Source: Pomphorhynchus laevis
Lineage: Eukaryota; Acanthocephala; Palaeacanthocephala; Echinorhynchida; Pomphorhynchidae
Length of the DNA: 64,000 bases
NCBI GenBank assembly: GCA_012934845.2
Contig: WNNJ02003730.1
Location: 1 to 64,000 of the forward strand
Direction: 5' to 3'
Below are positions 4,047 to 47,900 of the stretch, piece by piece. Within the stretch, counting starts at the first letter, position 1; every line of letters starts with the position of its first letter. The notes below the pieces were generated by a model that was not told the origin of the DNA, did not search any database, and was given only the letters and a program-made list of their open reading frames with translations. The position numbers and the translations under genes are program-made.

Positions 4047-4059
4047 CTGATCTGTCACA

Positions 4060-22800: not shown

Positions 22801-25800
22801 TATCTACGAAAACGTGTTTTCGTCTAGAATCAGTGCTCATCTATGTAGGCATAATTTAATCCCACCAAGTTTTCATTGGTTTGTAAACGTCGCTCAGTTC
22901 ATTTAGGTATCCGGGAAGTGCAACGGTTTTATCAAGGTAACAGTCATAAGCTTACTGTGGCAGTTCTTGACTTTTCCGCTGCATTTGACCGTATATACAT
23001 TCCTTTTGTTATCTCTTCTCCCAGGCCCATCGGTTTGCCTGCAAGAATTGTTAACAGGGTGTGGATTTTGCTGTGTACCAAGCGGTTCTTTTACGAAGAC
23101 GACCCTGATGCACGTCAGTTCTTCCCTATTACAGGTGTGCCTCAAGGCTCCCCGCTTTTCTATTTCATACCTTGCTGCCTCAATTGTACTACTCAAACCA
23201 TTAAAAAGCGATCATCATCAAGTGGTATACGATGATTATACCACAGATTGTTTTCTGGACGCATGTCTCGGACATCAGCCGCTTCTTTTTTAGATTAAAT
23301 GACCAGCTAGCCCCATATCGAGCAAGATATTACTCCCAGTCTTCACATATCGAGTAAGATACCACTCCGTCTTCACATATAGAGTAAGATACCTGGGTTT
23401 ACCATTAGGGTAAATTGTCGGCTGGATCAGACTTGTATATGTTCAAAGGTTTCCTGAAGAGTGCTATATAGGTCCTAAAATAGGTCCAGCATTTGTTATT
23501 TAGAGGAAATGCTCAGGTACGCCTATGGGGTACCTGAGCAATCTAAAGATTATTTTTCCTTTTTTAGAGGACGTCCTTCTGATCAAAGACTAAGGTTTCT
23601 CAAGCACCGTATTACGATATTACCTACTATTGTTTGTCTCGACTGGACCATAAAGTGTGTGAGAGACCTTGGATGGTTCAGCAGGAAAACGGCGCATTGG
23701 TGTATTCTGAAGGGTGCTTATCCCCCAGTCCGTTTTAAAATAGAAAGATTGTGGTGAATTGGTGAACTTAGACATCGATTGCTTTTGTTTGTTTTGCTTT
23801 TATGTTTAAATGTTGTATTCATGTTGTTTTAGTGAAAGAATCTATTATTATTAAATTGTCAGTTGTCTTACCGAGCGGGATTTTGTAATTCTTCAGCGAG
23901 AAAGTTTAGACCATTCCTAAATTCGGTATATTGTAGAATTAAATTTAATAAATTCAACGCACCATCCAGAGAATGTAAAAATTACGGAATGAAAGGCTAA
24001 TGAGAATTTTAAAGGTTCACTCGTTGTATTGGCAAAAAAGTTTTTGAAATTTGATGCACCTCCTTAAAAATTAACAGCAATCAATTAGGTAAATTGAAGT
24101 TAATTAAGGAAATTGAAGTCAATTAGATAAATTGACATCGTCGATACAAATACTATATTAATATCAAAATTATCCACTTTTACTTCGATTAGTTTTTGCA
24201 TTACTTTAATAAAGGTTAATGAAATTATCAATATTAATTAAACATCAGGGCGTTAATATGCTAAAATGTAGCTAATTTGTTATGTTAAATCAATATTAAA
24301 TAATCGAGAACATTTAGAAAAATCTTAAAGATTTTAACCATTAATCAGATCATATAAGTAAGTCTACGTATTTTATACTAAAATAAATTAAAAATAAAGA
24401 TAAATAATTACTATATAAGATTTAGTACAATTTATATTAATATAGCGATAGAATTTATAATTGAAATTCAAAATCTAAGTCAATTTTTATGAATTGACTA
24501 ATAAACAATATACGATGTATCAGAATAAGGGATTTAGGTCATCAGGAGTAACTGCCCTGTTATCGGGTTTCGACCCTATTCTTCGACCCAACATAGCAGC
24601 GTGGCCAAATACAAGGTAATAACGTAACTTGTCGATAGAAAAAATCAGATCAGATAAACGAGTCTACATATTTCATACTATATATCAATCAAAAATAAAG
24701 ATATAATAAATATATAAAATCTCATTCAATTTATATTTATATCAAATTACAATTTAAAATTTATATTTTCGAATAAATCTTATATTATATAAGATTTTAT
24801 AACTTATAGTAAGTTAAAAAAAAATTAAAATTTAATATAAAAGTCAATTTTTATGAATTGACTAATAAATAGCAGACGATGTATCAGAATAAGTATTAAA
24901 GGGCATTAGGAGGAACTGCTATGTTATCAGGTTTTAGTCCGTATTTCTTGACCCAACAAAGAATTATAATTTAGATTTTAATCTTAATTATGAATTAATT
25001 AATCTCAACTTCAAAAATTTTCAGTTATTAATTAAACATCAGGGCGTTAATATACTAAAATCTAGATAACCCTTTATATCAAAGGATATTAAATAAACGA
25101 GAACGTTTACAAAGATCTTGAAGATTTTAACCATTAATTAGATCATATAAGTATTTATGAATTCACAGATTCGGATCGACACAGGTAGATGAGAATTAAT
25201 ATCGATGATTCTTTAATAATTGATATTTTTAAGTTACAAAATATTACTAATTTGCAATGTATATGCAATGCCATTTGAAATATTTATCAGATTAGATAAC
25301 TGAGTCTACGTATTTTATACAATACAAAAATTAAAAATAAAGATAAATAATCATAAATAATAAATGATTATATAAAATGCTATAAAATAATTAAAAATCA
25401 ATTTTTATATTTTTAAATAAAAGTCAATTGTTATGAATTGACTAATTAATAATATACGAGCTATTAGAATAAGGATGAGAGCTGCTATGTTATCAGGGTT
25501 TAGCCCGTATTCCTTGACCCAACATAAGATTATAATTTAGATTATAATCTTAATTATGAATCAACTTCAGATTATAATCTTAAAGTTATTTAAATTAAAC
25601 TGATAGAAACAAAAACAATAATTATGGTATTCAAATTTGCAAATATTAAATTAGTTTTTAAAAATAAGCAAATACATACACGACATAAAAAATGTCGTGT
25701 ATAAAAATAAAGTAAGCTTTTCGAAAAGTTATACTTTACAATTGTTAGTTCGACTACCGTTCTTTCTGTCCAAGACATTTAAATTAAAATATATGTGAAT

Positions 25801-28800
25801 TAAATATATATAATTAATAATGAAAATAAAAAATTTTCAATTAATCGCAATTTCAAGTAAATGATATTTGATTGTGCTATTTATATGTTTATATTAGTTC
25901 AATATCGTCAACCATTGTAATCAAATTCTTTAAAATCATATTTAATGAGTATTTGATCGATTTCCTATGACTTAAAATTATGTTTTTGTTGTATAGATAC
26001 GAATATTATTTAAAATTGGTATCATAATACAATTCTATTTATTGATAAACTCAATTTATACATTTCATTTTAACTTTAATTTAATACATTTTGTAACCCA
26101 AATTTTAATTTTAATTTTAAAATAACTAATTTACAATAATAATCAAAATGTTGTTGTATGAAATTTGCACTAAAATATTTTTACGATTAAGTTGATATTG
26201 ATTCTACCTTTTAGACACTTTATTCTACCTTTTAGACGCTTTAATATATCTTTAAGACGCTTTATAATATATCTATCTAGTAAATCAATTATAAATTTAT
26301 AATTAAAATATTATTTATTTTATCATATATCAGCATTTATCTAGTAAATAAATGTTGCAGACAACGTTTATTTTCGAACTTTATCTGTAAATACTGTAGT
26401 ATCAGGTTAAATACAATAAACATATTTTTATGATTAAGTTTAACCTAATATATATTTTTATAGTAAGTTTGATATTTTTATAAAAATATTGTATAAAAAT
26501 ATAATATTAGAGTTTAGCTTTTATAAAAGGTAAATAACATTTTTATTATAATCTTTAAGATCTTTGAGCATCATGTCATGAATAATTGGAAACGTTTATA
26601 AATAATGCCAACTATATGCTAACCCGAAGCAATAAATGTCATTTTTGTTTTAATAAAAATGATTTTTTATTTATTTATTCAATTTTTACAATTTCATTTA
26701 CTAAACTCAGAATTATTTCATGAATAATATTCATTATTTGAAATTCATTTTTTTGTGTATATAAATAATGCAGAGTTTACGATAGTTATGTATGACATTT
26801 TAAACTATATATAATTTAACATGTTATATGTTGTTTATTTGTAAATATCAAACTTAATATTTTTAGCCAAAAATATTATATTTTTAATATGATTTGTGTT
26901 AAAATTAGTCTATTTTGATTTTATTCAGTGAAAAATTTAAATATGTTAAATTTATTTTAAATTTCTAAGACAATACTTTAGTTACACTGTTATGGCATTT
27001 GATATTGCACTTACCAGTATCGAGTCCATGCATGCCCATTACTATAATAGCAAATAAGGTGATCAACTTTCCGGCAGCAAAAATTTTGTGACATAAATTT
27101 ACAAGCTCGATGTTCAGTGCGTTCATTATCACAAATAACCCTTTTAAAAAGAGTATTAATATTAAAAATAAATATAATTTTGTAGAATATCTGATAAGAC
27201 AATTCAACGGAATAAGGATATTGTTAAGAAATTATTTACAAACAAGTTTAAGCTTCATATGTGAGAGGTTGTGAGAGGTTATAATAATTTTCAAATTATA
27301 ATTTCATTATCTTATTATTATTGAAAATATTTGAGTTATCATTGCTTTATCATATTTTATATTTTCAACAGTATGAATACAATCCAGATGATTATGAAGA
27401 TTGCGATGATTTGTAGTTAGGGAGTTAGTGCTTACAAGTTATAGTTGCTCAGAGTTATATTGTGTAGTGTAGCAGCTGAACATTTAACGGTCATATTGAA
27501 CGGTTAATAATAATGTAATAATTAAAACTGTAATTTAAATGTGTTTTACTTTTATTAAGTTTGTATTGAAACTAACTCTAAAGTATATTTTTCAAAAAAT
27601 AATAACATTTTCAATTTTTATATTTCTAAAAGTTGTATTTAATGAATAAATGATGAATCAAATCAGCTAACTAATTCTACGTATTTAATATAATTATAAA
27701 ATAAACAAAACATTTTTTTGTAGAATTAATAAATAAATAAATAATTTTGATTTATCAAAATATTTAAGGATTCTATTAATTCAATTTTATCCATATATTT
27801 ATATTTACTTGATGGTTTAATTTTTGTTAGATAGGCGTTATAGTTATTATAACATATATATGTATATCTTTTTCCGAATATAAGGTTAATTAATTTTACT
27901 AACGCTTCTTTAATATCTACTAAACCTAGATTTGTATAAAGAGTACTAAAATCGTATGTATTTATATTTTGAAAATTTATTCCTTTTGTCTGTTCTAAAA
28001 ATTCTTTTGTAGAATTAATACTGAAATAGTGTTTTATACCAGTATTAATTTCGATTACCTTGCAATATTTTAAAGTGTGCTTTAATTACTAAGTATTTTA
28101 TTCATATAGACAGAAAGTGGTTTTAATGTACATTTAAACGCACTACATATGAACCTAGGTTTTATTGGATTTTTATGTAATTTTGGATTCCAATATAATA
28201 TATGTATAGTAATCAATTATAAATTTATAACTTTTGATATATTATATAGTTTCAGCTAATATTTTGATTTAAAATAATGTAAATTTATTTAAACTTAATA
28301 ATAAATCAAACAAATAATTGAATTAATAATTAATTAATGGAATGATTAAATTAATCAACGAAATGTCTACTTACAAATGCAGCAAAATGCTAATATTCTC
28401 CTTAGAACAAGAGGAGCTCCACAAGGGAAAAATATGGCTAGTATGTAACTGCTAAATGAAAGCGAACCAACAGCACATGCACCAGGTGAAATAAGTATAA
28501 GATATGTCCATGAGAAAAGATATGCTGCAATTCTGTGTAAACCAACAAGCATGTGTTCATATGTCCCACCGGCTAATGGCAGCATGCATCCGAGTTCCAC
28601 ATTTATTAGGCAGCCACACATTATTACAATACTACAGACAATCCAAACAATCAAAGTGGCTCCATATGACCCAGCTTCAATTATCACCAAATGTGGTGTA
28701 ACAAATATACCACTGCCGACCATATAATTAACGATGAACATAGTTCCACTAAAGGCGTTAAGACGTTTCCTGAGCGTAACATTTGTTTGATTTTCATCTA

Positions 28801-28840
28801 TTGCCTCTGGATTATCGCCTATTAGCTCAATATCGTCCAT
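13825..28840 (-). CDS. SLC7 (LAT-type) amino-acid transporter, paralogue A (10 exons)
   Basis: Plasma-membrane amino-acid exchanger of the SLC7 light-chain family. Exons (minus): 28840-28375, 27140-27015, 24062-23963, 23916-23872, 20550-20427, 20379-20276, 19215-19119, 17653-17504, 14051-13880, 13838-13825. The joined frame is open for ~465 residues, the usual length for this family. VGSGIFVTP (41-49) is the unwound TM1 substrate site; FTFSGW matches the TM6 gate segment (FSYSGW in LAT1); FFPC (Cys140) fits the cysteine that links to an SLC3 heavy chain; then NFLAEELQNP, GASRRGHLP and LKHPNIKRPF. All splice sites are GT-AG except intron 8, which has a GCAAGT donor. Introns 3, 5 and 9 are 46, 47 and 41 nt. 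Intron 4 carries a retroelement insertion. The last exon (14 bp, ending SKI) is the least certain. Substrate cannot be inferred. Confidence 0.85.
14095..14580 (+). repeat. Dispersed repeat R (copy 1), in gene A intron 8
   Basis: A segment containing GTAGGTTTTCAAATTGGAGG and AGCAGACGAGTCGAGTGATC recurs, same orientation, at 47350-47620 in gene B. Here its ends carry two copies of a TGTTGGCTTA...AACAATGACTGCA block (14113-14190 and 14500-14575), so it may have direct terminal repeats of about 80 bp. It is not explained by the gene duplication, because the two genes are in opposite orientation. Mobile origin is likely; class unknown. Confidence 0.55.
15109..15540 (+). repeat. GC-richer island with ~12-bp tandem repeats
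   Basis: A less AT-rich stretch inside gene A intron 8. It holds five imperfect copies of a GCCACTCATGCT-like 12-mer (15236-15300). A CTGTGAGGATAATGTTGTGT block is repeated at about 15188 and 15484 in direct orientation. An ORF (15191-15532, plus) covers it but is repeat-driven and has no recognisable domain. It may be a small mobile-element remnant. Confidence 0.45.
15944..16052 (+). repeat. 14-bp minisatellite, CACATGTGAATAAA x8
   Basis: Eight tandem units of CACATGTGAATAAA; two units carry CACGTGTG instead of CACATGTG. Each unit contains a CANNTG palindrome. It lies in intron 8 of gene A. Units are almost perfect, indicating recent expansion. Confidence 0.9.
16489..16514. repeat. Perfect 11-bp hairpin
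   Basis: TTCTTGAATGG and CCATTCAAGAA flank a 4-base loop. The stem continues outward imperfectly as GGGAAT/ATTCCC. It lies in intron 8 of gene A. It may be a slippage product; no known function. Confidence 0.6.
16797..17205. repeat. Inverted repeat with a third partial copy
   Basis: 16797-16850 (ATTATTGGAGCTGGATCAAT...) is the reverse complement of 16970-17025, giving ~50-bp arms around a ~120-bp loop. A third, direct copy of the right arm lies at 17137-17205. This resembles a small non-autonomous hairpin (MITE-like) element with a partial duplication, in intron 8 of gene A. Confidence 0.65.
19370..19760 (+). repeat. Palindromic-tail repeat (PT copy 2)
   Basis: Carries ATCAGAGGAAATACATC, GGCCCCGCTGCTATGTTGGG, the GAAACCTGATAGCATAGCAG core, then TTATTTATTAGTCAATTCAT and an AT-rich tail to AGCTGATTTG. 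It is nearly the same as the tail of PT copy 1 but lacks the RT fragment. It lies in gene A intron 6. Confidence 0.85.
21640..23850 (+). mobile_element. Non-LTR retrotransposon, copy 4 (decayed), in gene A intron 4
   Basis: Inserted opposite to the transcription of gene A. The ORF2 start (ATG 21790) reads SLESFSLNIIWWNSGGTST; the RT fragment at 22740-23240 keeps DLRPISIQNSL, LDFSAAFDRI and TGVPQGSP; the C-terminal piece at 23509-23757 keeps RGRPSDQRLRFLK. Several deletions and frameshifts separate these. The ORF1/ORF2 junction region is tandemly duplicated (about 21640-21745 and 21745-21835). The 3' end lies about 20 bases from the splice donor of exon 4 of gene A; the matching site in gene B is empty. 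Confidence 0.87.
24340..24640 (-). repeat. Palindromic-tail repeat (PT copy 3)
   Basis: Reverse orientation: AT-rich tail, TTTTTATGAATTGACTAATA, GGTCATCAGGAG, an ACCCAACATAGCAGCG centre, then GGCCAAATAC. It lies in gene A intron 2. Confidence 0.8.
24641..24965 (-). repeat. Palindromic-tail repeat (PT copy 4)
   Basis: Begins AATCAGATCAGATAAACGAG and ends in the CTGCTATGTTATCAGG core and GACCCAACA. It is directly adjacent to PT copy 3 in the same orientation. Confidence 0.8.
25285..25530 (-). repeat. Palindromic-tail repeat (PT copy 5)
   Basis: Same layout as its neighbours, with GAGAGCTGCTATGTTATCAG and GACCCAACATAAG. Its right part is included in the near-identical inverted segment shared with gene B (25410-26203). 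Confidence 0.8.
25410..26203. repeat. Long inverted repeat, arm A (partner 44174-44961)
   Basis: About 790 bp of gene A intron 2 is the reverse complement of 44174-44961 in gene B intron 2, with only a few differences seen. Because the genes are inverted, the segment has the same sense relative to both. Identity breaks off sharply at both ends. A 62-codon ORF present in both arms (25590-25778 here) has no recognisable domain and is probably chance. Confidence 0.9.
27745..28200 (-). pseudogene. Penelope-like reverse transcriptase core fragment, in gene A intron 1
   Basis: Minus-strand fragment in two frames. 28195 to about 28100 reads YWNPKLHKNPIKPRFICSA and then CTLKPLSVYMNKIL. A second frame from about 28040 to 27745 reads NTYDFSTLYTNLGLVDIKEA. 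The PKLHK-x-P-x-K-x-RFI and TYDFSTLYT motifs are characteristic of one branch of Penelope-like RTs abundant in invertebrates; DFSTLYT carries the first catalytic Asp. YxDD and endonuclease parts are absent. One frameshift (near 28085) and truncated ends make it a relic. It may come from the same element family as the fragments at 8531 and 31641. Confidence 0.75.
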
Positions 28841-29267
28841 TTTTTGTATATTTAGAATTTAATCAGTCTTAAAAATTTTAAAACTGAAAAACACGCTTCT
28901 TTGTAGAATTTCAAAAATTCGCAAACGTAACAGTGACTAATAACTATTTTCAATCTTTAATAATAATATTACAACTAAATTGTCGGTACTCGACATTAAA
29001 ATGAATTAACAAAGGTAATTGCGATAATGCTTACTTCACTGGAAATATAATCATTCCCGAAAAATGCTTGACAAATTGTTCTTAAATATACAATCAAATT
29101 ACCAAATTTAGTGTTGTACAGGGAATATTGTAAGACTAAGAAGCAATTAAGAATTTGGAATTAAATGTTATTTGTGTGAAAATGGAGTTCCCGGTAGTAT
29201 AACCTCTGTCAGAAATACTGAAACTATGCATTTTCGACACGACATTATTTTTTTTTGCAAAAAATAT
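28841..29267. other. Upstream flank of gene A
   Basis: Non-coding. It would include the 5' UTR and promoter of gene A on the minus strand, but no core promoter element was assigned. A ~45-base stretch at 29188-29230 (CCCGGTAGTATAACCTCTGT and following) recurs at 45663-45706. Confidence 0.4.
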
Positions 29268-29350
29268 GATTGTGATTTGTCACACCGTGAGGCTGATTAT
29301 ACTAAGGTTCTTAACGACGCTTCATCCTATGCGTGCTAGATAGATTGTTA
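29268..29350 (+). repeat. 83-bp direct repeat, left copy
   Basis: GATTGTGATTTGTCACACCG through CTAGATAGATTGTTA; the near-identical right copy is at 30783-30865. The two copies bracket ~1.4 kb of mobile-element debris. Confidence 0.88.
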
Positions 29351-29512
29351 ATACCTGTGGTTCACCGTAACGATTAACCACAGGTATTTTACTCTACTTG
29401 TAAAGGTGGGGAGTGGTTCAGAGGCAAATATGGACAAGTGCGCTGAGAGTGCAAGTCTCTTAAGTTTTTGCTTTGTTGCAGGGGAGCCATGAAATACTAC
29501 CACCTGCGATTT
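29351..29512 (-). mobile_element. Fragment of the non-LTR family (ORF2, RT 3' part)
   Basis: Matches the region of copies 1, 2 and 8 that encodes VKYLGFTVTV and the stretch before it (minus strand): TTCACCGTAACG, then TAAAGGTGGGGAGTGGTTCA, then AGTCTCTTAAGTTTTTGCTT. About 160 bp with no termini; it begins exactly where the left 83-bp repeat ends. Confidence 0.8.
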
Positions 29513-29765
29513 ATAATCCTTTGTTGGGTCAAAGAATACGGACTAAAACCTGATAACATAGCAGTTTCTTCTAATGACCTATAATCGTTATTCTGAATAC
29601 ATCGTCTGTTATTTATTAGTCAATTCATAAAAATCGACTTTTATTTTAAATTTCAATTTTAACTTGATTTAAATATAAATTGTATAAAATCTTTTATAAT
29701 AATTTATTATTTAGTTTTATTTTTAATTATATATAGTATAAAATACTTAGACTCTGTTATCTGAT
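29513..29765 (+). repeat. Palindromic-tail repeat (PT copy 6)
   Basis: Starts TTGTTGGGTCAAAGAATACG, contains AAACCTGATAACATAGCAG and the TTATTAGTCAATTCATAAAA tail, and ends near GACTCTGTTATCTGATGG. Joined directly to the retrotransposon fragment. Confidence 0.83.
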
Positions 29766-30044
29766 GGAATTAATATGATTTGTATAATAAAGATATAAAT
29801 TAAAGAAAATTATATTACTTCGAAGAAAATATTCTATATTTAATATTATATAATATAACTTCTTTACTATATACTTTCAATTAAATATAATTTATTAAAT
29901 ATATTTTAATTTCATTAAAAATATTTTAAATTTTCGTTATTTTATTTTTAATTCACATTATTTTATTTTATCTTAAGACTTCGGCAATATTCATCAAAAT
30001 ATTGTATTGCTCAAGAAAGATAGTGAGTCCATTCTGCGTGAATC

Positions 30045-30430
30045 ATTCTGTTATACTCATTAAAGCCAAACGCAAAGGAAAACAGACAGAACGGTAGCAC
30101 GTGCTGTTTCGTCATCACAATGACTCATCAATGCCAAATCCCTTCTACTGATGGATGCAGTCGACGACTGGCAGACGACACACAACACGGGTCATGTGTA
30201 TGATGTACAACAGTTGTTCTAGTACCTCATACACATGACTCGTGTGTACTTATTAGAACGAATTTAGTGCCTTATATCATTTACTCGTACTTTGTGCCGT
30301 CTACCAGTCCTCCTATGCATCCAACAGTGTGAGGGATCTGACACTTGCGAGACATTGTGATGACGAAGCGGTACGTGTTACTGTTTTGCTTTATCTTTCG
30401 CATTTGGCTTGAATGAGTATAAAAGAATTA
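30045..30430. mobile_element. Palindromic MITE-like element
   Basis: Nearly the whole 385 bp can fold on itself. Outer arms: TTATACTCATTAAAGCCAAA pairs with the TTTGGCTTGAATGAGTATAA end. Middle arms: TTCGTCATCACAATG with CATTGTGATGACGAA. Inner arms: CGGGTCATGTGTATGA with TCATACACATGACTCG. It is less AT-rich than its flanks and has no coding capacity, which fits a non-autonomous hairpin transposon. No clear target duplication was identified. Confidence 0.75.
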
Positions 30431-30782
30431 TTTTAAAAATAAACTTTAAGTAGCTTTTGCTTTTTTTAACCAACGGTTGGAAATATGATATCAAAACGTT
30501 TTCACCTTAGAATGCATTATATCTTGATTTAATCAAATGTGTATTACATATCAAATTATAAAGTCATATATGAAAATTTTTAATAATTTAGTTTGAATCA
30601 GTGGATTTATATGATAATCCCAAATTTAATCCGTTAACAGAAAAAATTATTTTAATCGTCAAATTATTTAAGCATTTTTTAAATAAATCCTCGTTATATT
30701 TTTAATTATATTTTTAAATAATTTCGTGTAGTCATAGAATTGTTGTTAATTTTAAAAGTCTACATTTTATAAAGCTACAAGA

Positions 30783-30865
30783 GATTGTGATTTGTCACAC
30801 CGTTAGGCTGATTATACTAAGGTTCTTAACGACGCTTCATCCTATGCGTGCTAGATAAATTGTAA
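30783..30865 (+). repeat. 83-bp direct repeat, right copy
   Basis: Partner of 29268-29350, with a few substitutions. It ends 20 bases before the small ORF at 30885. Confidence 0.88.
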
Positions 30866-30884
30866 GTTTTCCGAAAATATAGCA

Positions 30885-31190
30885 ATGAAATGCAAGTTAG
30901 ATCTCAATAAACTTTTAATTAACTGGTTGTTCCGAAATCATCTAATTATGGCTGATAACAAAAAGGCACACAAAGAGTGCTGTATTATATTTCGTCTTCC
31001 TTTCTTAGCGGTAATTGTCATTTTTGTTTTTAAAAACGATAATTATTTCTTTTCATATCGTTCGTCTTCAAAGCATTCTGAGTCTGATAAAAAACAAAAG
31101 CGAAATGATACATACGTGATGATAAACTTACCTAGTAAATTCATTTTTACAGATATGTTAGTTGCGAAACGTATTTTTAAAAGCAAATAG
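30885..31190 (+). CDS. Small ORF of unknown function, 101 codons (possibly chance)
   Basis: No family is recognised. The frame begins MKCKLDLNKL, has a hydrophobic stretch (LPFLAVIVIFVF, about residues 38-49) that could be one membrane segment, then a polar Ser/Lys-rich part (SSSKHSESDKKQ) and a basic end. It is longer than most chance ORFs here, but codon use is AT-driven and it stands alone between repeats. It could be an exon or remnant of a mobile-element gene, or no gene at all. Confidence 0.2.
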   Translation: MKCKLDLNKLLINWLFRNHLIMADNKKAHKECCIIFRLPFLAVIVIFVFKNDNYFFSYRSSSKHSESDKKQKRNDTYVMINLPSKFIFTDMLVAKRIFKSK

Positions 31191-31284
31191 TAGAAAACTA
31201 GTGTTTTTTGTTAATCTTTTTGTCAAAATTTGTAGATATTTTGTTATTTTATCGTTAAATTAGGCAAATCAAAAATATTAAATA

Positions 31285-32020
31285 ATACTTTATGATCAAA
31301 TCAGCTAACTGAGTCTACGTATTTAATATAATTATAAACTAAACAAAACATAATAATGCTAAATCAAAAAGTAATAATTAAATAATAAAATTAATAATTG
31401 TTTTTAAATTTTCTATAATTTAAATCAAGTTAAAAAAATGAAATTTAAAATAAACGTCATTTTTATGAATTGACTAATAAATAACATACGTTGTATCAGA
31501 ACAAGAATTAGAGGTCATCAGGGGGAACTGATATGTTATCAGGTTTCAGCCTCTAGCTCCTCTACCCAACATAGCAGTGGGGCCAAATACATGCTAATGA
31601 TGTATTTCCTCTGAAATAACTATCTAGTATCTTATTCTAATGCAAAGTATATTATTTATTATCCATCCATAAAAATTGCCACTTAAGAGTTTAAATTTAT
31701 TCTTTATATTATTGTGTTGATTTATATATTTTACTATTTTCTGCTTGATGTTATTTTTATAGTAACCTAGTTTAAAATATGTATCTATTAAATTATTAAA
31801 TGATTTTGAAGAAAGCCAATATCATTACATATTGTTGCAATTCTTAAAATTTCATTATTTAATGTATTATATTTTATATTATATGATATGCATAAATGCT
31901 CATGCCAAAATATGTTTCTTGTAAATTTAAATATGTCATCTTTAAGATATAAATTAATAGTAGTTTTAATTAATCTTCATTTAATGTTCATATCTAGATA
32001 TATCCCTTCTTTATCATCAA
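31285..32020 (-). mobile_element. Penelope-like RT 3' end plus palindromic tail (PT copy 7)
   Basis: Inverted counterpart of 8531-9240 and the most complete copy. From high to low coordinates it encodes YLDMNIK, LYLKDDIFKFTRNIF, YNIKYNTLNNEILRIATICN (stop or frameshift near 31800). The AT-rich stretch, the palindromic centre (AACTGATATGTTATCAGGTT ... CCCAACATAGCAGTGGGG) and the tail to AAATCAGCTAACTGAG follow. FLDMxI, LY-x-K-x-DDF and RI-x-x-IC are motifs of the last third of Penelope-like RTs. This links the repeated tail to an RT-encoding element. Confidence 0.72.
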
Positions 32021-32334
32021 TATTGGTTTTGTTAAGACAAACCCAACATTGATTTGAAAAACTAATATTAATTAGACAAAACCAATATTAATGATGATTA
32101 CTCATTAAAGTTTGATTTTAGCGAAATAAGGAACATAACATACTCAACAGAAGGCGTTTTATAAACATTGCTTTTAGAAATGAAATTTAGTTTTTAAAAA
32201 TATTTATGTTTACATAATATACCTTAATATAAAAATGTTACTTGCTAAAATTTATCAAAAAATTTAAATACTTAAATATAAAGAAAATTCTAAACGACTT
32301 TAGATGTATATAATTACTTCTTAAGTTATTATTC

Positions 32335-32350
32335 GCCTCCGTGGCGCAAC

Positions 32351-32391
<41 letters not shown>

Positions 32392-32408
32392 GAATCCACC
32401 CGGAGGCG
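32335..32408 (+). tRNA. tRNA-Asn (anticodon GTT)
   Basis: Complete cloverleaf of 74 nt without intron. The acceptor stem is GCCTCCG with CGGAGGC and discriminator G. The D arm carries GGTTAGCGC, the anticodon stem TTCGG/CCGAA encloses loop CTGTTAA with anticodon GTT at 32369-32371, and the T arm is GGTGGTTCGAATCCACC. Internal pol III boxes A and B are intact and all stems pair. The sequence is close to animal cytosolic tRNA-Asn. No CCA is encoded, as expected. It charges asparagine for AAC/AAU codons. Confidence 0.97.
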
Positions 32409-32522
32409 AACTTGTTTGTTTAAGAGTGACACGAAATTAGATGTCGTCTATTGTATGTTTCATAACAGTTGACTTTTATTTTAAATTTATAAATGTTATA
32501 TTTAAAATTTTATTTTAAATTT

Positions 32523-32687
32523 AAAAATGTTACTTGCTAAAATTTATCAAAAAATTTAAATACTTAAATATAAAGAAAATTCTAAACCACCAACCAAATA
32601 AAAGGCAAACCAAACAGGTTAATGGTTCTATTAAAGGCAACCAAAGGCAAATTCGAACCACGTGGTTCGAATCCACGCGGATGCGAA
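32523..32687 (+). pseudogene. Decayed tandem copy of the tRNA-Asn unit
   Basis: The ~65 bases upstream of the tRNA (AAAAATGTTACTTGCTAAAA and following) are repeated exactly 292 bases downstream. The repeat is followed by a scrambled tRNA body: an ACCACCAACC piece in inverted orientation, a short GGTTAATGGTTC piece, and the original T arm and acceptor end (GTGGTTCGAATCCACGCGGATGCG). Downstream flank (AAGAGTAACACG... ATGTCGTC) is also duplicated. It cannot fold as a tRNA. Confidence 0.8.
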
Positions 32688-32754
32688 GGTTTGTTAAGAA
32701 AAGAGTAACACGTAATCGGATGTCGTCTCTATTTTTCTAAAATATTGCATGTTT

Positions 32755-35320: not shown

Positions 35321-35994
35321 TAAAACTAACTGTTTTAATTCTGTATTTTTCAACTGAAATGATAACAATTTGCAATTGAAGCTAGTCTAAATAATAATTT
35401 TATAAGTTTAATTTTATAAATTTAATTTTAAAAGTTTGATTTTATAGGTTTAATTTTAAAAGTTTAATTTTATATTATTTAATTTAATAAGTTTAATTTA
35501 TTAAAATCGATAGTTACTAAAAACAATAATGATTGTATTTTGAAAGGTATAAATGATAAAGTATTTTATATTTCACAAACATGTTGTATTTACATTCTAG
35601 TTTTATGAATAAAACACAATGCATATTTTAATAAGTATCAAAATGAACAAAACATATTAATTCAACTCATTCGATGCAAATACATCGCTGTAATATATTT
35701 ATACCTTTGAATTTGTTGTCATACAGATAGAGACACTACCATGATTATATCTTTCTTTAATAATTTGTGATGTGCATGAGTATTTCTTTTTTTGTTGTGT
35801 TGCATTACGGTAGAAACAAAAGTCAAATACCGAATTAGTCATTGCCTCGTGATAATCGTTATTGCTAGGAATTGTCGACTTCAAATGTAGCAAAATTAAT
35901 CTCAAACAAAATATCTTGTTTTACAAAATACTAAAAGTATCTAACTATAAACGAAATAGTAGACGTAATTATCCTGGCATTTCAAGAGAATATC
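35321..35994. other. Upstream flank and 5' UTR region of gene B
   Basis: Short iterated TTTAATTTTATAAGTT units at 35400-35490, then non-coding DNA up to the gene B start codon. Promoter elements cannot be assigned. Confidence 0.4.
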
Positions 35995-38900
35995 ATGCCG
36001 ACTGAATTCGACAACCAGACTGATGATGAAATACCAACTAACATAGAATTAAAGAAACGGCTTAGTGCTTTTACCGGGGCAATGTTTATCGTTAATTATA
36101 TGGTCGGCAGTGGTATCTTTGTTACACCTCAGTTTGTGTTGCTTGAAGCTGGATCGATAGGCGCAAGTCTGATAGTCTGGCTTATTTGTGGAATTGTAAT
36201 AATATGTGGCTGCCTAATGAATGTGGAACTCGGATGCATGCTACCATTAGCCGGTGGGGCATATGAACACATGCTTGTTGGTTTACATAGAATTGCAGCA
36301 TATCTTTTTTCTTGGACATATCTTATACTTATTTCACCTGCTGCATGTGCGGCAGGTGCATTATCATTTAGCAACTATTTACTAGCAACCGCTTTTCCTT
36401 GTGAATCACATACTTTTCTTAGCATTGTATTGTCAATCGGATGTATTTGTAAGTATTTATTTAACAAAACACATATTTGTAAAAATCAAAGTAAATTTAA
36501 ATAAATTTTTATGAAACAGCGAATTTTAAAGTCAAATATGAAAAATTAACTATTTATTAATGATTGTCAACAAATCCGATCGGTTATATGAATTTACTTC
36601 ATACTTTCAGTACTATGTTTTCAGGAAAACCTGATAAGATAGCAGTTCCTCCAGATGACTTATATTTCTTAATATAAGTCATCTATTAGTCTTATATTTC
36701 TTATTAGTCAATTCATAACAATTGACTTTTATTCAAAATTTGATTTTAAATTTAAACTTGATATAAATTATATAAAATCTTATTTAACAATTATTTATAA
36801 TTATTAATTATAATATTTATAATTATTTATAATATTATAATTATTTATAATTATTAATTATAAACATTTATGGATAATAAACAATATGTTTTGTATTAGA
36901 ATAAGGTATACTAAATAATCAAATTTCATCATAGGAAATAAGTCATTTGTATGTATTTGGCCCACTGCTTTATTAAATCGAGGAACAGGGTTTAGATTCA
37001 CTATCAATTTTCTTAATTCGACTAATTCCAATATCGTAAATCCATATGTTGGACCAAGGAATAGGGAACGAAACCTGATAACATAGCAGTTCCTCTTGAT
37101 GACCACTGATCCTTATTCTGATACATCGTCTGTTACTTATTAGTCAATTCATAAAAATTGACTTTTATTTTAAATTTTAATTTTTTATTTTAACTTAATG
37201 TATGTTATAAAATCTTCTAAGATTTATTTAAAAATATAAATTTTAAATTGTAATTTGATATAAATATAAATTGAATGAGATTTTATATATTTATTATATC
37301 TTTATTTTTGATTGATATATAGTATAAAATGTGTAGACTCGTTTATCTGATCTGATTACTCAATATCTGATGTTATTTATTAGTCAAACCATAACAATTA
37401 ATTCTTATTTTAAATTTCAATTTTAAATTTTAACTGAATATAAATATAAATTTTATAAAATCTTATATAATTATGTAATCTTAATATCTATGGATATAAA
37501 TAAAAATTAAATAAAATCTTATATAATTATGCAATCTTACATAATTTCCTGCTAATATAGCAGTTAGTAGTTTATTCTGATGACCTCTAATCCTTATTCT
37601 AACACATCATCTGGTATTTATTAGTTAATTTATAAAAATTGACTTTTATTTTAAATTTAAATTTTAAATATAAACTTAATTTAAATTATATAAAATCTTA
37701 TATAACAATTATTTTTTATTTATAATTATTTATTATTAGCATTATTTTTAATTTACAAATAGTATAAAATACGTAAACTCAGTTATCTGATCTGATTAGT
37801 CCCAACATTGCAGTCCTTAATATTATTTTTTTATAATAACTGAGTTGTAAATAACTATTCATAAAAAAGTAAATATATTTACTTATTTATTTAAAAAGCA
37901 AATATCTTAATCTTAAGATTTTCTATAATTCATATATTTATAAGGTGAGAATTTTTTAACTTAATTTTTATGAACCAATTATTTGATAATATACAATGTG
38001 TTAGAATGAAGATTATATGTAAGAATAAAACACAAATTAATATTTTAAAACAATTTAATATCAATTTAATATTTATTAATATTAAATTAATATAATTTAA
38101 TCACTCAAAATTTAATCAAATGAAGATATAACCTCTCAACAAGAGAATTCGAATGCAGAGTAGACTAATTGTTATGAATTGACTAATAAATAACATACGT
38201 TGTATCATAATAAGGATTAGAGGTCATCAGGAGGAACTGCTATGTTGTCAGTTTTCGGTCCCTATTCCTCGACTCAACATAATAGCTGGGCCAAAATACA
38301 TGCTAATGACGTATTTTCTCTTATGAAATTTGACTATCTAGTGTAATATCTTAGTTGAACGCAGAGTATAAATAAAAAAGTATAAAACTGGCATTTCACA
38401 ATTGTGATATCACTTAGTGTAAATATTATCTAATAATATAAATTAATGGAGATGAATCATTTCTATAATACAACAACTTGAATCACAGCATTCAGTTGTC
38501 CACCTGAACGCAATGTATTAACAGAAAGTCTTATAATATCAACAATCACAAAATTGTATTTTTACAACCGTGAAATATTATATTATATTATTCGTATTAT
38601 ATTATACACGTCATAATTTTCTTTTTGAATCGAAACAGATTGAGATGACAACATATAAAAAGATGACCTCTAAAGTTTCATAGGTATATTATTTTAATTA
38701 AAACTGTGTTACGACATATACCGAAGATATAATCGTTCAGATATAAACTAAAATTACAAGTTTTAAATTGCAGCAACAGATAGTTTGTGCTCAATTTCAT
38801 CAGTGGGAAATAGCCATAAAATATGAAATTACGTTTCCAATTTTCATATAAATAAATGTTTTCTCTTCTATTCATTTGCTGATATCAATTTGACTTGCGG

Positions 38901-41900
38901 TATGGTCATCAACGTAGTTTTTATTCTAAGATATGAATTTGTAAATACTTGATATAGCATTAACATTTTTTTAAATTACATAAAATTAAAAGTATTGTTA
39001 TAAAGTCAAAAAGATAATTAGAAATACTGTTCATTAGAAATATAGAGATGTTTATCCTGCCGACTCCGTAAAACAAGCCGTGTTTCCTCGTTGCGCTAAC
39101 TCGCTGTATGAGGTAACTCATTGCCCGTTTATCTCCAGTCGATCAAAGTAATGTTTCTCATGAGTTGCAAAAAACGGTGTACTAATGCCAACGGCTCCCA
39201 TGGTTTCGATGGCGATCGGGACAAACTTGTACTGCCGCTCATCTTAGCCGCTATATTTGGTACCCTTCACAAGTTCAGCATGATCAGCAACGGAACTTGC
39301 AGAATGTACTGCGAGCTATGTGACTGGCTGCGAGAGTGTTTGGGCGTCAAAGTCACAAACAAGCACTCGCTCCGACTCCCACGGCAGTAACGAAGCCCTG
39401 TCGGCCCGCTTACCGTCGTCTCTAGTCATACCGACGTGTTCCAGTCTGGATGGAATTCCTGCGGAGGCTAGGACCATTCTCACACTTTCATTGACCGCTG
39501 ATTGGCGTACATTTCTGTCTTTTGTTGCAATCTAGCGCATAAGCGCTGTTTTTCCGGACTAAGACCATTTTGAAGCGGTAGCAATGAGGGGAGCACGCGA
39601 TTCGGGACTAGTTGCTTTGTCGACAATCTTTTGGTGACACGCATCATAATAGCCCTCCATCGTTTCTGAATGGCTGGCGCCGATTGGATTGTTGCCTGAA
39701 ATTCAGCGTGCAATTGACCTGTAGCTTTTTCAAAGTCTGGGTCTGGTAAGAGTGGATATAGTGATGGGCAGCTTCCTAGCAGTCTCTTGGTTAGCTCTGT
39801 TGTTAAGCATACAGAAGAGCCGAACGCAGGTATTGTGACTTTCAGCGCTTGTCAAACACTAAGTCCTTCGAGCCTGATCGGTAAGGTATTCTGCCGCCAC
39901 ACATCATCGGGAAGCGTCACATTCAGCACAATGCTCAGTAGACGGCGGACTTCTTCGTCGAATGAGTGTAGTTGCTTGCTCCAAAAGCAGAGAGAACATC
40001 GAAGGTGGAAACCTATTTTCGGAAGGCAGAGGGAGCTTCGAAGATGTAGGAAAGCGCAATGGGCACTTAATTCGATAAACATTTTTCTGTGTTTGAAAGC
40101 TTGTTTACGGCTTTACCCAGAGCTCCATCGATATTAGCTTGCTCTCTTAGAGGAGCTACCAATAGCGTAGCGTCTTGAGGTGAAACTGTATGACACCCTG
40201 TTAGTTGTCATATGATGTCTCTGCTGAGATCTAGGCTGTCTGTGATTACCTCACTCTGTTCGGAATTTAGCTTCAATCAGATTTCAAACCCCGCTGCCTG
40301 AATTTTTCGAATGTCTGAGAGGATGGTGGTTGCAGTACTGCTCAGAACGCAGTATCCAAATACCAAATATTGATGAAAGAATCCAGACTGTGTGCTGGAG
40401 CGTTAACTGCAAGGCAGAAAATCACTGCGCACAGTGTTACATCCTGTTGGAGCCTTCGCCGGATATAATGTGCTCACTACGCGCATATACAAATTTATAT
40501 TCACATATATGCAAATTAAAAGAAAATTTCCATCAACTGAGAAAGATAATACAATTTCTACTAAATGTTTTTACAATTTAAAACAAATGCTGCTCCTATT
40601 GATACAATCAGTAGTAAATTGAGCATTTATAATACCGACCATATATATCTGATATATGTTAGTGTTATATATTAGTGTATCAAACAACAGAGTGATCAAT
40701 CGTCGTATTTAGGAAAATTTCAATTCTTTAAATAATTAGCTTATTCAAATATTTGAATGTGCAGAAGAAAAATGTGATTTGGGACATTTACTATTAGCTT
40801 GACGAAAACGGTTATTATGAAAAATTAATTAATTTAAATTTACTAAATTAATTAATAAATCATTAAATTAATAATCACTAAATTAATTAATCAATGATTT
40901 AAGGTTGAAGAATTGAGAAATTAAATATTTAATTAATTTTAAATGTTTCTTTTATAAAAATTATAAAATTTATCATAAATTAATTATAAAATTTTTATTC
41001 TTTAATAAAATATATAAAATACTTAAAATACATTAAATGAATAAATAAGGTGTGCCCCGTGTTAGTACGAAATAGATATAATATTTATATAAATGAAGTT
41101 TAATCGTACAGTTGTGTTTGCTATCATTAAATACCATTTAGTGCTCAAAATAAACAATGAACATTTTCAAGCAATCGTTGTTTAATCTGTAATCTAAGAA
41201 ATTAAATGAACTGATATTGTAAATATATTAGCACGAAGTTAAAAAATAAGGTAATAATAAATAGAAAAAGTAGATAAACAAAACACAAATTGCTCAAAAT
41301 TATCAGCTAGCTAAGATTAACGTATTAATTGGGATCTTAATTATTGTTATCAAAAGCGATTAGTATAAAATATAAAAAAAATATTTTATAAAATATAAAT
41401 ATATTGCATATATTAAAAACGTTAAAAGCGATACTATAAAGTTATATTAATTATGAACTTCGTATAATAATTAAGCTATTTGCACTAAGTCATGTCCTAC
41501 CTAAATTGTCAAAACTTCTTCGATATCAAGCTGCATACTGAAAAAGCAGCTCCACCGAAGACAATCGTTGATCATCTTGGTCATGTTCATATTTTGCAGT
41601 TTGCTAAAAATTTTCTTAATTCGTATAGAAATTATAAAAAGTAGTGCTTAAGAATTTAAAAAATACATGCTCATTTACTTATTTATTATATTATATTTTA
41701 TAAAAATTTTATAGCTATAATCAATGATAGAAAATTAGTGTTTGCTCGATATGTCAATAACCTCTGCTAATCGCGGTTTGAGTTATTAATTTAGTTTCTT
41801 TGTACATAAATAGTACAAAGAAAATTTGGGAATGTAAGAAGTATGTTCAATTGTACAAAGATAACAAGAGGAAATATTAACAAAGTTGGTTTAACAACGT

Positions 41901-44900
41901 AAAATATGATAAATACGTTCTATACCAACAATTTCGCGGCAAAACAAATAACATACAAGATTATTCCAGTCGACAACTAATCCGTGTGTCGGGTCGTATA
42001 GGCAATGCACAAACCAGATTACTCCAGACACCGCAATCCTTGGTGACAGATTGGAGTTCTCTTTCAGATTGCCCAAGGCGGTCTTTAGCGAGTTTCGAGA
42101 TTTGATCTCTCCACCGGTATCAAGATCTATCTCGAGATCTCTTCCCAGATAGTTCTGACTGGAAAACCCTTTGAGGAAGACGATCCCTAGACATCTCAGA
42201 ACGTACCATAGTAACTTCAACTGACTTTCTTTGATGTAGAGAGGCAGCAGCTTTACCTTGAGTACATCCCGAATAACGGGATTGACTCGGGGTAATAATA
42301 TATTATGAAGGCATTATATATATGATATTTTAAAGGCATTCCATGTAACGGTATACGTTAAATTGTGAATATCAACAAGCCATTGAACATTGAATTTTCT
42401 AAAATAATAATTTGGTCCCATTTTTTTAATTTACACATTTCTTCTATATTTTTATTTTATTACATAATTATAATTTTTTAAAATAACAATTTGGCAGATA
42501 TTCGATTTTTGTTTAATGCGTTTCTAACTTCATCAAATTCCCATCTTGGTCATGTTCATATTTTGCAGTTTGCTAAAAAATTTTCTTATTTCACATAGAA
42601 ATTATAAAAAGTAGTGTTTAAGAATTTAAAAAATACATGCTCATTCTGTAAAGCGTTGTCTATCCCAAATCGTAAACAATTAGACGATTTATGATATAGT
42701 AATATGTAAAAATACACTAAATATAAGTATATTATTCATTTAGTAGCTAAACTCTAACTACTAAGTAACTATAAATTAGTTAGAAATTTTATTAATAAAA
42801 TAAGATATTATCAATAAAATTACTTCAAAATACTTTGATTTTGAAGTAACGATTTTTAAATTACGTATCAATTCGTACAAATTTATAAACACTGTAGATC
42901 TTGATCATACACTCGTGATTTGTTACGGATTTTAATTTTAAAGTATCGATTTTGAATTGCAACTTAAATTGTGGAATTAAAATTACAGATTTTGATAATA
43001 AAAGTCATGATTTGTGAACAATTTTTATTTTAAAGTATCGATTGTGTCAACACATTTTAAATTGCACAAATTTATAAACATTGAAGATTTTGATGATAAA
43101 AATCATGATTTGTGATTAATTTCTATTTAGAAGTCGCGAATTTCAAATTACATTTTAATTTGTACAAATTTATAAAAACTGTAAATTCTGATCATAAACT
43201 CATGATTTGTTACCAATTTTGATTTTTTAATTACAAAATCAAAATTGATTTTGATTTTTTAAATTACAATTAAAATTGTGCAAAATTTACATTAAATTTT
43301 GATAATAAACATCATGATTTGTAACATTTCGATTTTAAAGTATCTATTTTTTAATTACATTTAAATTTTACAATGTTTTTAAAATTTTAGATTGTGATAT
43401 TATATTTTAATTTCATTATATAAAATATGATATAATATAAATATAATACAATATCACATAATATAAATGTTGTGATATTATATACAATTGTATATGTTAT
43501 ACAGTTGTATACATATAATTTTGTAATATAAGTTTTATTTTTAGGATTTATCGATTATTAAATTTATCAAATTATATTGTTTTTTGAGCAGTATTTAAAC
43601 AAACTACGCGATAATTTTTAACCCATTAAAGTATGTAATGTCTATATTAATTGATTCAATTTTCTTGATAAATTACTGCTTATGGATTGCCATAAGCAAT
43701 CCATAAGCATTTACAGTACATTTATACTCTATTTAAATAGAGTATAAATGTAATTTCAATTATAATATTGTGCCTAGCTGATATGAGAACAGCGCTTTAT
43801 TCCTTTGTTTATTTTGCTGAAATTTGTTGATTTTGAATATTTATAAAATTCAACTTCATATTTACTAATTCAAAGGGATTTTTGTGGTATTGAACACTTG
43901 GCATATACGAATGGTAAATATGTGTCACAAAGGATTCGCAATCGGAAAGCTGATGACTTTACTTGCGATAGTTATAATGGGTATTTATGGAATTGTAATC
44001 GGTAAGATCAACTTTTGTCAAAATTAAAAATATCTATCTTTATGAGAACAAGTTTGTACCTAAATAATACAGTATTTTCAGATAAAGTTTAAAAATAAGT
44101 GTTGCTTGTTAATTAAAAAAAACTTAATTACTTTACTCACTAAATAAACCATTAAAAAGTTTAAAAAGCATAAAATCAATATCAACTTAATCGTAAAAAT
44201 AATTTAGTGCAAATTTCATACAACAACATTTTGATTATTATTGTAAATTAGTTATTTTAAAATTAAAATTAAAATTTGGGTTACAAAATGTATTAAATTA
44301 AAGTTAAAATGAAATGTAAAAATTGAGTTTATCAATAAATAGAATTGTATTATGATACCAATTTTAAATAATATTCGTATCTATACAACAAAAACATAAT
44401 TTTAAGTCATAGGAAATCGATCAAATACTCATTAAATATGATTTTAAAGAATTTGATTACAATGGTTGACGATATTGAACTAATATAAACATATAAATAG
44501 CACAATCAAATATCATTTACTTGAAATTGCGATTAATTGAAAATTTTTTATTTTCATTATTAATTATATATATTTAATTCACATATATTTTAATTTAAAT
44601 GTCTTGGACAGAAAGAACGGTAGTCGAACTAACAATTGTAAAGTATAACTTTTCGAAAAGCTTACTTTATTTTTATACACGACATTTTTTATGTCGTGTA
44701 TGTATTTGCTTATTTTTAAAAACTAATTTAATATTTGCAAATTTGAATACCATAATTATTGTTTTTGTTTCTATCAGTTTAATTTACTTTAAGATTATAA
44801 TCTGAAGTTGATTCATAATTAAGATTATAATCTAAATTATAATCTTATGTTGGGTCAAGGAATACGGGCTAAACCCTGATAACATAGCAGCTCTCATCCT

Positions 44901-47900
44901 TATTCTAATAGCTCGTATATTATTAATTAGTCAATTCATAACAATTGACTTTTATTTAAAATTTGATTTTAAATTTAAACTTGATATAAATTATATAAAA
45001 TCTTATTTAACAATTATTTATAATTATTAATTATAATATTTATAATTATTTATAATATTATAATTATTTATAATTATTATTAATTATTATGGATAATAAA
45101 CGATAAGTTTTGTATTAGAATAAGGTATACTAAATAATCAAATTTCATCATAGGAAATAAGTCATTTGTATGTATTTGGCCCACTGCTTTATTAAATCGA
45201 GGAACAGGGTTTAGATTCACTATCAATTTTCTTAGTTCGACTAATTCCAATATCGTAAATCCATATGTGGGACCAAGGAATAGGGAACGAAACCTGATAA
45301 CATAGCAGTTCCTCCAGATGACCACTGATCCTTATTCTGATACATCGTCTGTTACTTATTAGTCAATTCATAAAAATTGACTTTTATTTTAAATTTTAAT
45401 TTTTTATTTTTACTTGATATAACATAGCAGTTCTAATCCTTATTTTGACAGATCATATTTTATTTATTAGTCAATTCATGACACTTGACTTTTATTTGAA
45501 AATTTCAATTTTAAATTTTAATTATAAAATAATTTTTATATAAATTGAATAAAATATTATATATTTATTATTTAACTTTATTTTTGATTTATTATAGTGT
45601 AAAATACGTAAACTCAGTTATCTGATGAGTTTTACTGATAAGTTATTATTGATCCGTGGACTTCGTTTACCCGGTAATATAACTTCCGTCAGAAATACTG
45701 AAACTACGACATTAAAATTTTCGAAAAAGCTTCATAAATTTTTCTTATAATGGAGAAGTATAAATAAACAAATACTATTATTTAAAATAAATTTAAATAA
45801 TTAAGCGAAATTTTTTATGAATGAATAATAAACAATATGCTTTATTTTAGAATAATATACACCAGATAATCAAATTTCATCAGAGGAAATACGACATTAG
45901 CATGTAGTTAACCCCACTGTTATGTCGGGTTGAGGAATAGGGATCGAAACTTGATAACATAGCAGTTCCTCCTAATGAGCTATATTCCTTATTCGAAAAC
46001 ATCATATATTATTTATTAGTCAATTCATAAAAATTGACTTTTTTAATTATAAATTCTATCGTGATATAAATACAAATTCTGTAAAATCTTATATAATCAT
46101 TTATTATATATAATTATTTATCTTTATTTTTTAATTTATATATATACCATAAAATGCGTACATTAACTTATATGATCTGATTAATGGTTAAAATCTTTAA
46201 GATTTTTCTAAACGTTCTCGTTTATTTAATATCGATTTAACATAACAAATTAGCTACACTTTAGAATATTAACACCCTGATGTTTTATTGGAATTGAGAA
46301 TTTCATTAACCTTTATTAAAGTTATACAAAAACTAACCGAAGTAATATTAGATAATTTTGATATTAATATAGAATATTAGCTGTATTAGAATAAGATACT
46401 AGATAATCCAAGTTCAACAGAGGAAATACTTTATTATTATGTATTTGGTCCCTCTGCTATGTTGCGTAGGGGAATAGGTGCTGAAACCTGATAGCATAGC
46501 AGTTCCTCCTGATACCATATATCCTTTTTTCTGATACATCGTTTGTTATTTAAATTGATGAGGTATTGATAATATATATTGATAATCTATCCTGATGTTT
46601 CATTTAAATTGAGAATTTCATTAATCTTTATAAAAGCAATGTACAATAATATAGTATTCGCATCGACGATATCAATTTACCTAATTGACTTCACTTTACC
46701 TAATTGATTGCTGTTAATTTTTAAGGTGGTGCATCAAATTTCAAAAACCCTTTTGCCAATACAACGAGTGAACCTTTAAAATTCTCATTAGCCTTTCATT
46801 CCGTAATTTTTACATTCTCTGGATGGTGCGTTGAATTTATTAAATTTAATTCTACAATATACCGAATTTAGGAATGGTCTAAACTTTCTCGCTGAAGAAT
46901 TACAAAATCCCGCTAGGTAACAAAACTGACAATTTAATCTTATATGCTGCATTTAACGTCAAAGTAGCATATAGTTTGTTCCATAAATCGATAAGCTATA
47001 AATTCTAATGATGTAGCGCTTTTACTAAAAATTGAAAGTAACATTTTATATTCTTTAATGTATTAATGACAAATATATTTACTTTTATATTCAAATTTAC
47101 ATGTATATATGATACGCATCGTCTTATAGTTTATATTTGTGATTAATATTATATGTTTAAGACAAACGGGATGATGAAAATAACGTAACAAGCTGTTACA
47201 ATAGCGACTTTATATTTTCATATATGAGATTGGCTTACAGTAAATACTTTGAATCAATGATGTCCTTACAATTATTAGTGCATATTTCCGCTATTATATC
47301 GGTTTGCAAAACATTATAAAATGAATAGCTAATTCATTTTATAATGAATTATTAAGTTATGAATAGTTTAATAATAGTAATCATTAGGAGAAATATGTAG
47401 GTTCTCAAATTGAAGGTAGAACTTTCCCCTACTAACGCTGATTTAAAACAAAATCAGAAATGATTTCAATTAAATTTGAAAAAATGTAAGACGAGTCTTT
47501 TATTAAATCTAAATGCCAATATAGCAGACGAGTCGAGTAATCGACTTAAGTCATACAAATTGCAATTATAATAATTTTGTAACAATTATTGAACAATTAC
47601 TAGGAAACAAACTACATTTTGTAATATTTACGTTAACGTGAAATGTAAAATTAATTATTTGATTATAATTTATTTTATTGTCCTGACCTTATAATTTTGA
47701 TATCGAATCTAAAATAAGATAAATTTTTAAAAATGTTTGTAAATTTGTCACATGGGAATATTTCACGAATATCAATAAATTTAATAATTTAATAATAATT
47801 CAAGTCAAAAAGTTAGAATATTATCAATTTGTAAAATTACATTTTTGTATTGGTGTGATTGTGACTTCGATTGATATAGCATGTCTCGATAATTATGCAA

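Follow-up and report, generated by a model that had tools for sequence, protein, structure and literature searches.

Mosaic pairs of paralogues, in which near-identical segments lie within diverged genes, have been described in mammals, where a criterion of more than 97% identity across two neighbouring exons with their intervening intron led to BMP8A/B (an inverted pair), DDX19A/B and TUBG1/2 (PMC2720389). In C. elegans, the hsp16-48 modules and hsp70-7/8 are adjacent inverted genes undergoing conversion, with diverged flanks and with tracts entering introns (PMC3966223), and in the palindromes of mammalian sex chromosomes conversion takes place between inverted copies on one chromosome (PMC3723533, PMC8981503). 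Here we describe a comparable pair from the acanthocephalan Pomphorhynchus laevis. In a stretch of 64,000 nucleotides of contig WNNJ02003730.1 (the window), two SLC7/LAT-like genes, A (- strand) and B (+ strand), form an inverted, divergently transcribed pair, facing outward with 7.2 kb between their start codons. They are dissimilar over most of their length, yet share the much more similar tracts T1 (in exon 1), T2 (in intron 2) and T3 (around exons 3 and 4) (Table 1). We consider it highly probable (roughly 85%) that this mosaic reflects repeated ectopic gene conversion after an inverted duplication and long divergence.

The A/B locus seems to work like the known gene-conversion mosaics, showing a known kind of process in several layers. 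It resembles the mammalian pairs in being a mosaic recognized by nearly the same criterion, and BMP8A/B also in its inverted arrangement. The mammalian pairs have orthologues in several mammals and raised GC (guanine plus cytosine) content in their converted parts, whereas A and B show no GC rise and are known from the DNA of one species; moreover, BMP8A and BMP8B lie ~235 kb apart, compared to ~7 kb between the starts of A and B (PMC2720389). The C. elegans pairs are mostly compact modules homogenized as a whole, while A and B carry short islands in long, decayed genes (PMC3966223). Likewise, the arms of sex-chromosome palindromes are more than 99% alike and undergo GC-biased conversion, whereas in A/B only the islands are alike and GC does not rise (PMC3723533, PMC8981503). 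What is slightly unusual in A/B is how deeply the DNA around the islands has diverged, along with the presence of a third intron segment. The A/B pair suggests that short islands within two highly diverged inverted genes of a parasitic worm can be subject to ectopic conversion. Among the papers listed for Acanthocephala together with gene conversion, none, judged by its title and the first lines of its abstract, deals with conversion in an acanthocephalan gene.

Between A (23872-24062, reverse complement) and B (46726-46916), 4 of the 191 positions spanned by exon 3, exon 4 and their intervening intron differ (A 24061, 24039, 24038, and 23873), and the 46-nt intron 3 is identical (46/46), in line with what an earlier inspection of this DNA, made from its letters alone (the sequence-only reading), had reported. 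As it had also noticed, the homogenized block reaches into intron 2: T3 is an ungapped block of 267 bp with 10 differences, containing one identical run of 164 bp that was equalled in 56 of 100000 random placements of these differences. Intron 5, which is close to intron 3 in size (47 and 46 nt), matches between A and B in only 33 of 54 columns. The sharp switch in identity described in the same reading exists on the intron-4 side, whereas on the intron-2 side the change is graded, with 7 differences in 79 positions (24038-24116) followed by a partly repetitive 3' part of A intron 2 that is 89% identical to its B counterpart over 269 bases. On other contigs, that 3' part matched best at 85% over 167 bases, with short ones (64-80 bases, in the head of the dispersed repeat) reaching up to 94%. 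A search of the genome (249.4 Mb, 3242 contigs) with exons 3-4 and their flanks found two places, namely A and B (2 of 2 candidates scored).

The remaining exons tell a different story. DNA identity between A and B in exons 2 and 5-9 is 56.7-72.1%; exons 2 and 5 proved as diverged as had been claimed (65.9% and 63.7% in DNA; 22/42 and 23/41 identical residues). The per-exon synonymous divergence (dS, Nei-Gojobori), which had been proposed as a check, is 0.10 in exons 3-4, 0.73 in the whole of exon 1, 1.54 in exon 2, 1.54 in exon 5, 1.29 in exon 6, saturated in exon 7, 1.71 in exon 8, and 1.90 in exon 9. To remove the effect of protein constraint, we compared the silent choices at the codons that encode the same residue in A and B (n=291, Met and Trp excluded). 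The same codon is used at 31/32 sites in exon 3 and 14/15 in exon 4 (together 45/47), versus 69/98 in exon 1, 12/20 in exon 2, 11/22 in exon 5, 13/22 in exon 6, 6/18 in exon 7, 18/28 in exon 8, and 18/36 in exon 9. The longest run of identical codons (45) falls in exons 3-4 and was reached by none of 20000 permutations, whose maximum was 33. Matching introns have decayed further: no alignment lying wholly inside matching introns 4-8 was found at E ≤ 1e-4, and at the same threshold the intron 1 alignments show 59-66% identity, as do many non-matching intron pairs of this AT-rich DNA. In intron 2, A 26320-24150 aligns loosely with B 44062-46375 (75%). A palindrome with long similar arms is thus ruled out by the failure of introns 4-8 to align, and the palindrome label used in the sequence-only reading was too strong.

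That reading was right about the exons 3-4 block but overlooked two others, one in intron 2 and one in exon 1. The larger of them, T2 (793 bp in A and 788 bp in B), shows 786 matches, 2 mismatches, and one 5-bp indel, and has the same orientation and order relative to exons 2 and 3 in both genes. A genome search with B 44164-44961 gave at least 46 matches, with 40 of 1636 candidates scored; all except A and B start no earlier than query position 645 and lie in a dispersed repeat, so that among the scored candidates the first ~645 bases of T2 occur in A and B only. As far as the scored candidates reach, a multi-copy mobile element carrying T2 or T3 was therefore rejected, since T3 and this part of T2 occupy two places each. 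The right edge of T2 falls inside a repeat copy present in both genes, and the change from identity to divergence thus lies within alignable DNA, as expected where a conversion tract ends. The same repeat did not serve to tell donor from recipient: its B copy continues into DNA that B intron 1 also contains, but the A copy also extends past the same point in many genomic copies. Nor could shared repeat insertions be used to mark time, because a tree built from 22 copies of the repeat was too weak. A hairpin in T2 with an 11-bp stem (A 25676-25702, B 44675-44701) was considered as a starting point for conversion and dropped because longer hairpins of this kind occur outside the tracts (12 hairpin entries in the window, some of them the same hairpin with another loop).

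In exon 1, T1 differs between A and B at 10 of 162 positions, compared to 42 of 171 in the rest of the aligned exon. Once exons 3-4 are excluded, T1 (B residues 65-118) is the best segment, with the same codon at 42 of 46 sites; 8 of 20000 permutations did as well. A simpler statistic shows nothing unusual: the longest run outside exons 3-4, of 14 identical codons, was equalled in 1228 of 20000 permutations.

A further segment, in B intron 1, is chimeric. Its first part (36682-37196) is 96.1% identical to B intron 2, and its last part (37175-37357) is 91% identical to A intron 2, with the change of partner near 37195 in a three-way alignment. Both parts include dispersed repeats. Among the scored matches, the within-locus copy of the first part is nevertheless the best (97% over 305 bases versus 85% over 243 bases elsewhere, shorter ones reaching 87%), and so is that of the last part (91% over 188 bases versus 80% over 171 bases, shorter ones reaching 85%), which suggests that exchange, or local duplication followed by exchange, involved three places.

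A genome search with B pointed to further LAT-like places on contigs C2006, C196, C302, C1671, and C1931. In a paralogue on contig C196 (L040, hereafter D), exons 3 and 4 are split at the same place as in A and B, but over 44 codons their DNA shows 57.6% identity to each of the two genes, with agreement at only 10 of 20 silent choices, which excludes silent-site constraint on these exons. In the T1 region, silent choices shared with A and B number 3-4 of 17-19 in D, 10-11 of 23-26 in paralogue E, and 8-11 of 23-26 in paralogue F. At the protein level, the relatives found at E ≤ 1e-60 were P. laevis proteins and one outgroup protein, P0003 (484 aa). Identity of P0003 to both A and B is 20/34 in exon 3, inside the range of the other exons (34-71%), and 12/15 in exon 4, slightly above it. 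Exons 3-4 hold 1 residue difference between A and B and 17 (of 49) to P0003, while elsewhere A and B differ at 150 residues, against a mean of 174 to P0003 (Fisher p 4e-4, only a guide because the counts share branches). Trees of eight proteins gave the same picture: the path from A to B is 0.54 without exons 3-4 and 0.02 in exons 3-4, whereas the path from P0003 to the A/B node is about 0.50 and 0.48, respectively. Silent-site conservation of exons 3-4 in distant relatives, one of two findings that the earlier reading had named as speaking against conversion, was hence not observed in D.

Gene conversion between inverted paralogues, as first proposed, is the best explanation of these data, given that constraint fails and that non-coding intron DNA is homogenized too. 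An inverted duplication would have given rise to A and B, which then presumably diverged until alignment of matching introns failed and saturation had reached most silent sites. Short tracts would then have been copied by ectopic, non-reciprocal conversion: T1, the ~790-bp T2, and T3, which covers exons 3 and 4 and the end of intron 2. The homology for pairing may have come from conserved exons and shared repeats. Difference rates vary among the tracts: 2 of 788 aligned positions in T2 and 0 of 164 in the core of T3, versus 10 of 103 at the edges of T3, ~11% in the 3' part of A intron 2, and 10 of 162 in T1. T2 and the T3 core look recent; T1, the edges of T3, and the 3' part of A intron 2 look older. 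This uneven divergence, visible within T3 alone (the 56 of 100000 above), makes at least two episodes, probably of different ages, likely; selection on exon sequence could have added to the unevenness. Under such a history whole-gene distances would misdate the A/B duplication, dispersed repeats can form a tract edge, and sequences from related worms would allow the episodes to be ordered in time.

A more tentative extension, which we regard as possible but rather unlikely, is that the islands sustain themselves: the ~790-bp intron block, exons 3-4, the exon-1 segment, and the chimera in B intron 1 would keep exchanging in cis, each conversion renewing the homology for the next while the rest decays. 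If true, two transporters that otherwise diverge would be held in step at their substrate-site segment by one such coding island.

Several points weigh against conversion. Highly diverged flanks are unfavourable for strand exchange. The tracts show no rise in GC (20.6-20.7% in T2, compared to 20-35% in introns longer than 100 bp), and GC at third codon positions (GC3) is 12/49 (A) and 13/49 (B) in exons 3-4 and 133/412 (A) and 133/413 (B) elsewhere; GC-biased conversion thus leaves no signal. A conflict between trees was looked for and none was seen: with P0003 as the one outgroup, A and B group as sisters in each of the four partitions, with support of 79 without exons 3-4, 80 in exons 3-4, 83 in exon 1, and a weak 46 in exons 5-9. 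The split from P0003 seems to predate the duplication, so that no conflict can arise and the strongest classical test of conversion is lost. Finally, the published draft genome, of which the genome searched here is probably a version, was built at 17x PacBio coverage from the pooled DNA of ten worms (PMC7310846), and read correction might have erased true differences within tracts that were already similar.

The last point leads to the alternative that survives best, although we consider it improbable: that the hybrid assembly pasted, or short-read correction homogenized, segments of one copy into the other. The draft combines PacBio and Illumina data into about 260 Mb, spread over 4,021 contigs and with a repeat content of ca. 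63%; in its pipeline, which might leave room for such errors, Canu and DBG2OLC contigs were merged by Quickmerge, gaps were filled by PBJelly, and Illumina reads were used for correction by Proovread (PMC7310846). Nonetheless, each copy retains differences of its own (10 in T3, 2 and an indel in T2, 10 in T1), and the patches are collinear in both genes and far shorter than the ~9-kb inserts (PMC7310846). Correction could hardly create the contrast with neighbouring DNA either, because at ~65% identity that DNA is unlikely to attract reads from the other copy.

Local duplication or insertion, in which a repeat or template switching added fragments instead of an existing homologous stretch being overwritten, appears very unlikely. 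The extra, non-collinear copy of intron-2 material in B intron 1 indicates that fragments do get duplicated within the locus, and T2 does terminate within a dispersed repeat. Yet T1, T2, and T3 lie at matching sites and in matching orientation, and T3 is in working splice register in both genes. Comparing the loci and searching the genome showed a single exon 3 and a single exon 4 in each gene, with no second native copy, although a very diverged remnant could escape detection because the search also missed exon 3 of D. As for unusually strong protein or RNA selection on exons 3-4 in both genes, it is scarcely credible: the segment does align with an SGW-containing stretch of y+LAT1, which we take to be the substrate-site helix TM6 (transmembrane helix 6), but the ordinary conservation of exon 3 in P0003, the residue-count contrast, and the divergence of D all argue otherwise, as does the homogenization of T2 despite its being intronic.

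A and B are predicted to encode LAT-like SLC7 amino-acid transporters. In a protein search, B matched GJ496_003787 of P. laevis at 99% identity (B itself) and GJ496_003786 at 66% (A), the two being annotated on one contig of 97,258 bp, and the product of A is 100% identical to GJ496_003786 across 99% of its length. Both exceed the gathering score of 27 for PF13520 (Pfam AA_permease_2), with 169.6 bits (B) and 169.4 bits (A). Among solved structures, the closest to B are SLC7 light chains (consensus xCT-type; y+LAT1/2, b0,+AT, LAT1/2, xCT, and Asc-type). The best family, NCBIfam TIGR00911 (L-type amino acid transporter), scored 322.9 (B) and 323.6 bits (A), below its curated cut-off of 701.8, so we name them only LAT-like.

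Exon models were drawn from the A/B comparison and from splice sites, with the final coding stretches placed from the annotated proteins. In each gene, nine coding exons join in matching phases, with open reading frames in both; the genes reach further than the sequence-only reading had it, owing to the final coding stretches. The start codon of A, at 28840, is our choice. The annotated N-terminus of GJ496_003786 differs, using 32617-32712 and 35759-35842 (-), far upstream of A exon 1, one of which adjoins the upstream side of the B start; we regard that annotated model as doubtful. For B, the start of exon 6 follows the annotated protein. An exon 6 start at 48390 was rejected, as its five extra residues are missing from the annotated protein and from P0003; the choice leaves aligned-codon counts unchanged because the extra codons face gaps. 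In this gene model, intron 8 of A (17503, - strand) has an apparent GC-AG donor, GCAAGT, whose B counterpart is GTAAAC.

Table 1. Positions in the window of the two genes, the shared tracts, and the chimeric segment.
Feature	Position	Strand	Description
Gene A (GJ496_003786)	10126..28840	-	Coding exons 28375-28840, 27015-27140, 23963-24062, 23872-23916, 20427-20550, 20276-20379, 19119-19215, 17504-17653, 13880-14051; last coding stretch 10126-10221
Gene B (GJ496_003787)	35995..60681	+	Coding exons 35995-36448, 43876-44001, 46726-46825, 46872-46916, 48235-48358, 48405-48508, 50648-50744, 51197-51346, 53937-54108; last coding stretch 60592-60681
T1 in A	28475..28636	-	Exon 1 segment
T1 in B	36187..36348	+	Exon 1 segment
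T2 in A	25411..26203	-	793 bp, inside intron 2; right edge within dispersed repeat
T2 in B	44174..44961	+	788 bp, inside intron 2
T3 in A	23850..24116	-	Intron 2 end, exon 3, intron 3 (23917-23962), exon 4, intron 4 start
T3 in B	46672..46938	+	Same parts; intron 3 at 46826-46871
A intron 2, 3' part	24150..24420	-	89% identical to B 46104-46375 over 269 bases; partly dispersed repeat
B intron 2, counterpart of the 3' part	46104..46375	+	Counterpart of A 24150-24420
Chimeric segment, B intron 1	36682..37357	+	First part B-intron-2-like, last part A-intron-2-like
B intron 2 partner of chimeric segment	44904..45415	+	From sequence and three-way alignment
A intron 2 partner of chimeric segment	24640..24830	-	From sequence and three-way alignment

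At least three further LAT-like genes (L038, L039, L040) cluster on contig C196, of which three stretches were read. Two of these genes share 91% identity in exon 1, within the stretch matching T1 as well as beyond it.

The window also contains several repeats. A tandem direct duplication (91%) lies at 12442-12912 and 12910-13392, within the last intron of A, and an inverted pair (90%) at 52192-52575 and 53270-53656, in B intron 8. Reverse-transcriptase-like frames at 4051-6531 (+; 826 aa), 92-2530 (an inverted copy of the former, at 84%), 61773-63524, and 22437-23266 (a fragment inside A intron 4) presumably belong to retrotransposon copies, which we take to be of the non-LTR (long terminal repeat) type. 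Within the span of B, a reverse-transcriptase-like frame of 449 aa (56609-57958, -), the end of which resembles a GIY-YIG endonuclease, has motifs that hint at a Penelope-like element. The dispersed repeat resembles a short interspersed nuclear element (SINE), with a conserved head of ~115 bp, and occurs in 25 stretches of the window (e.g. 25349-25527, 44845-45025, 24784-24958, and 29522-29713); a first look across the genome gave hundreds to thousands of candidate copies.

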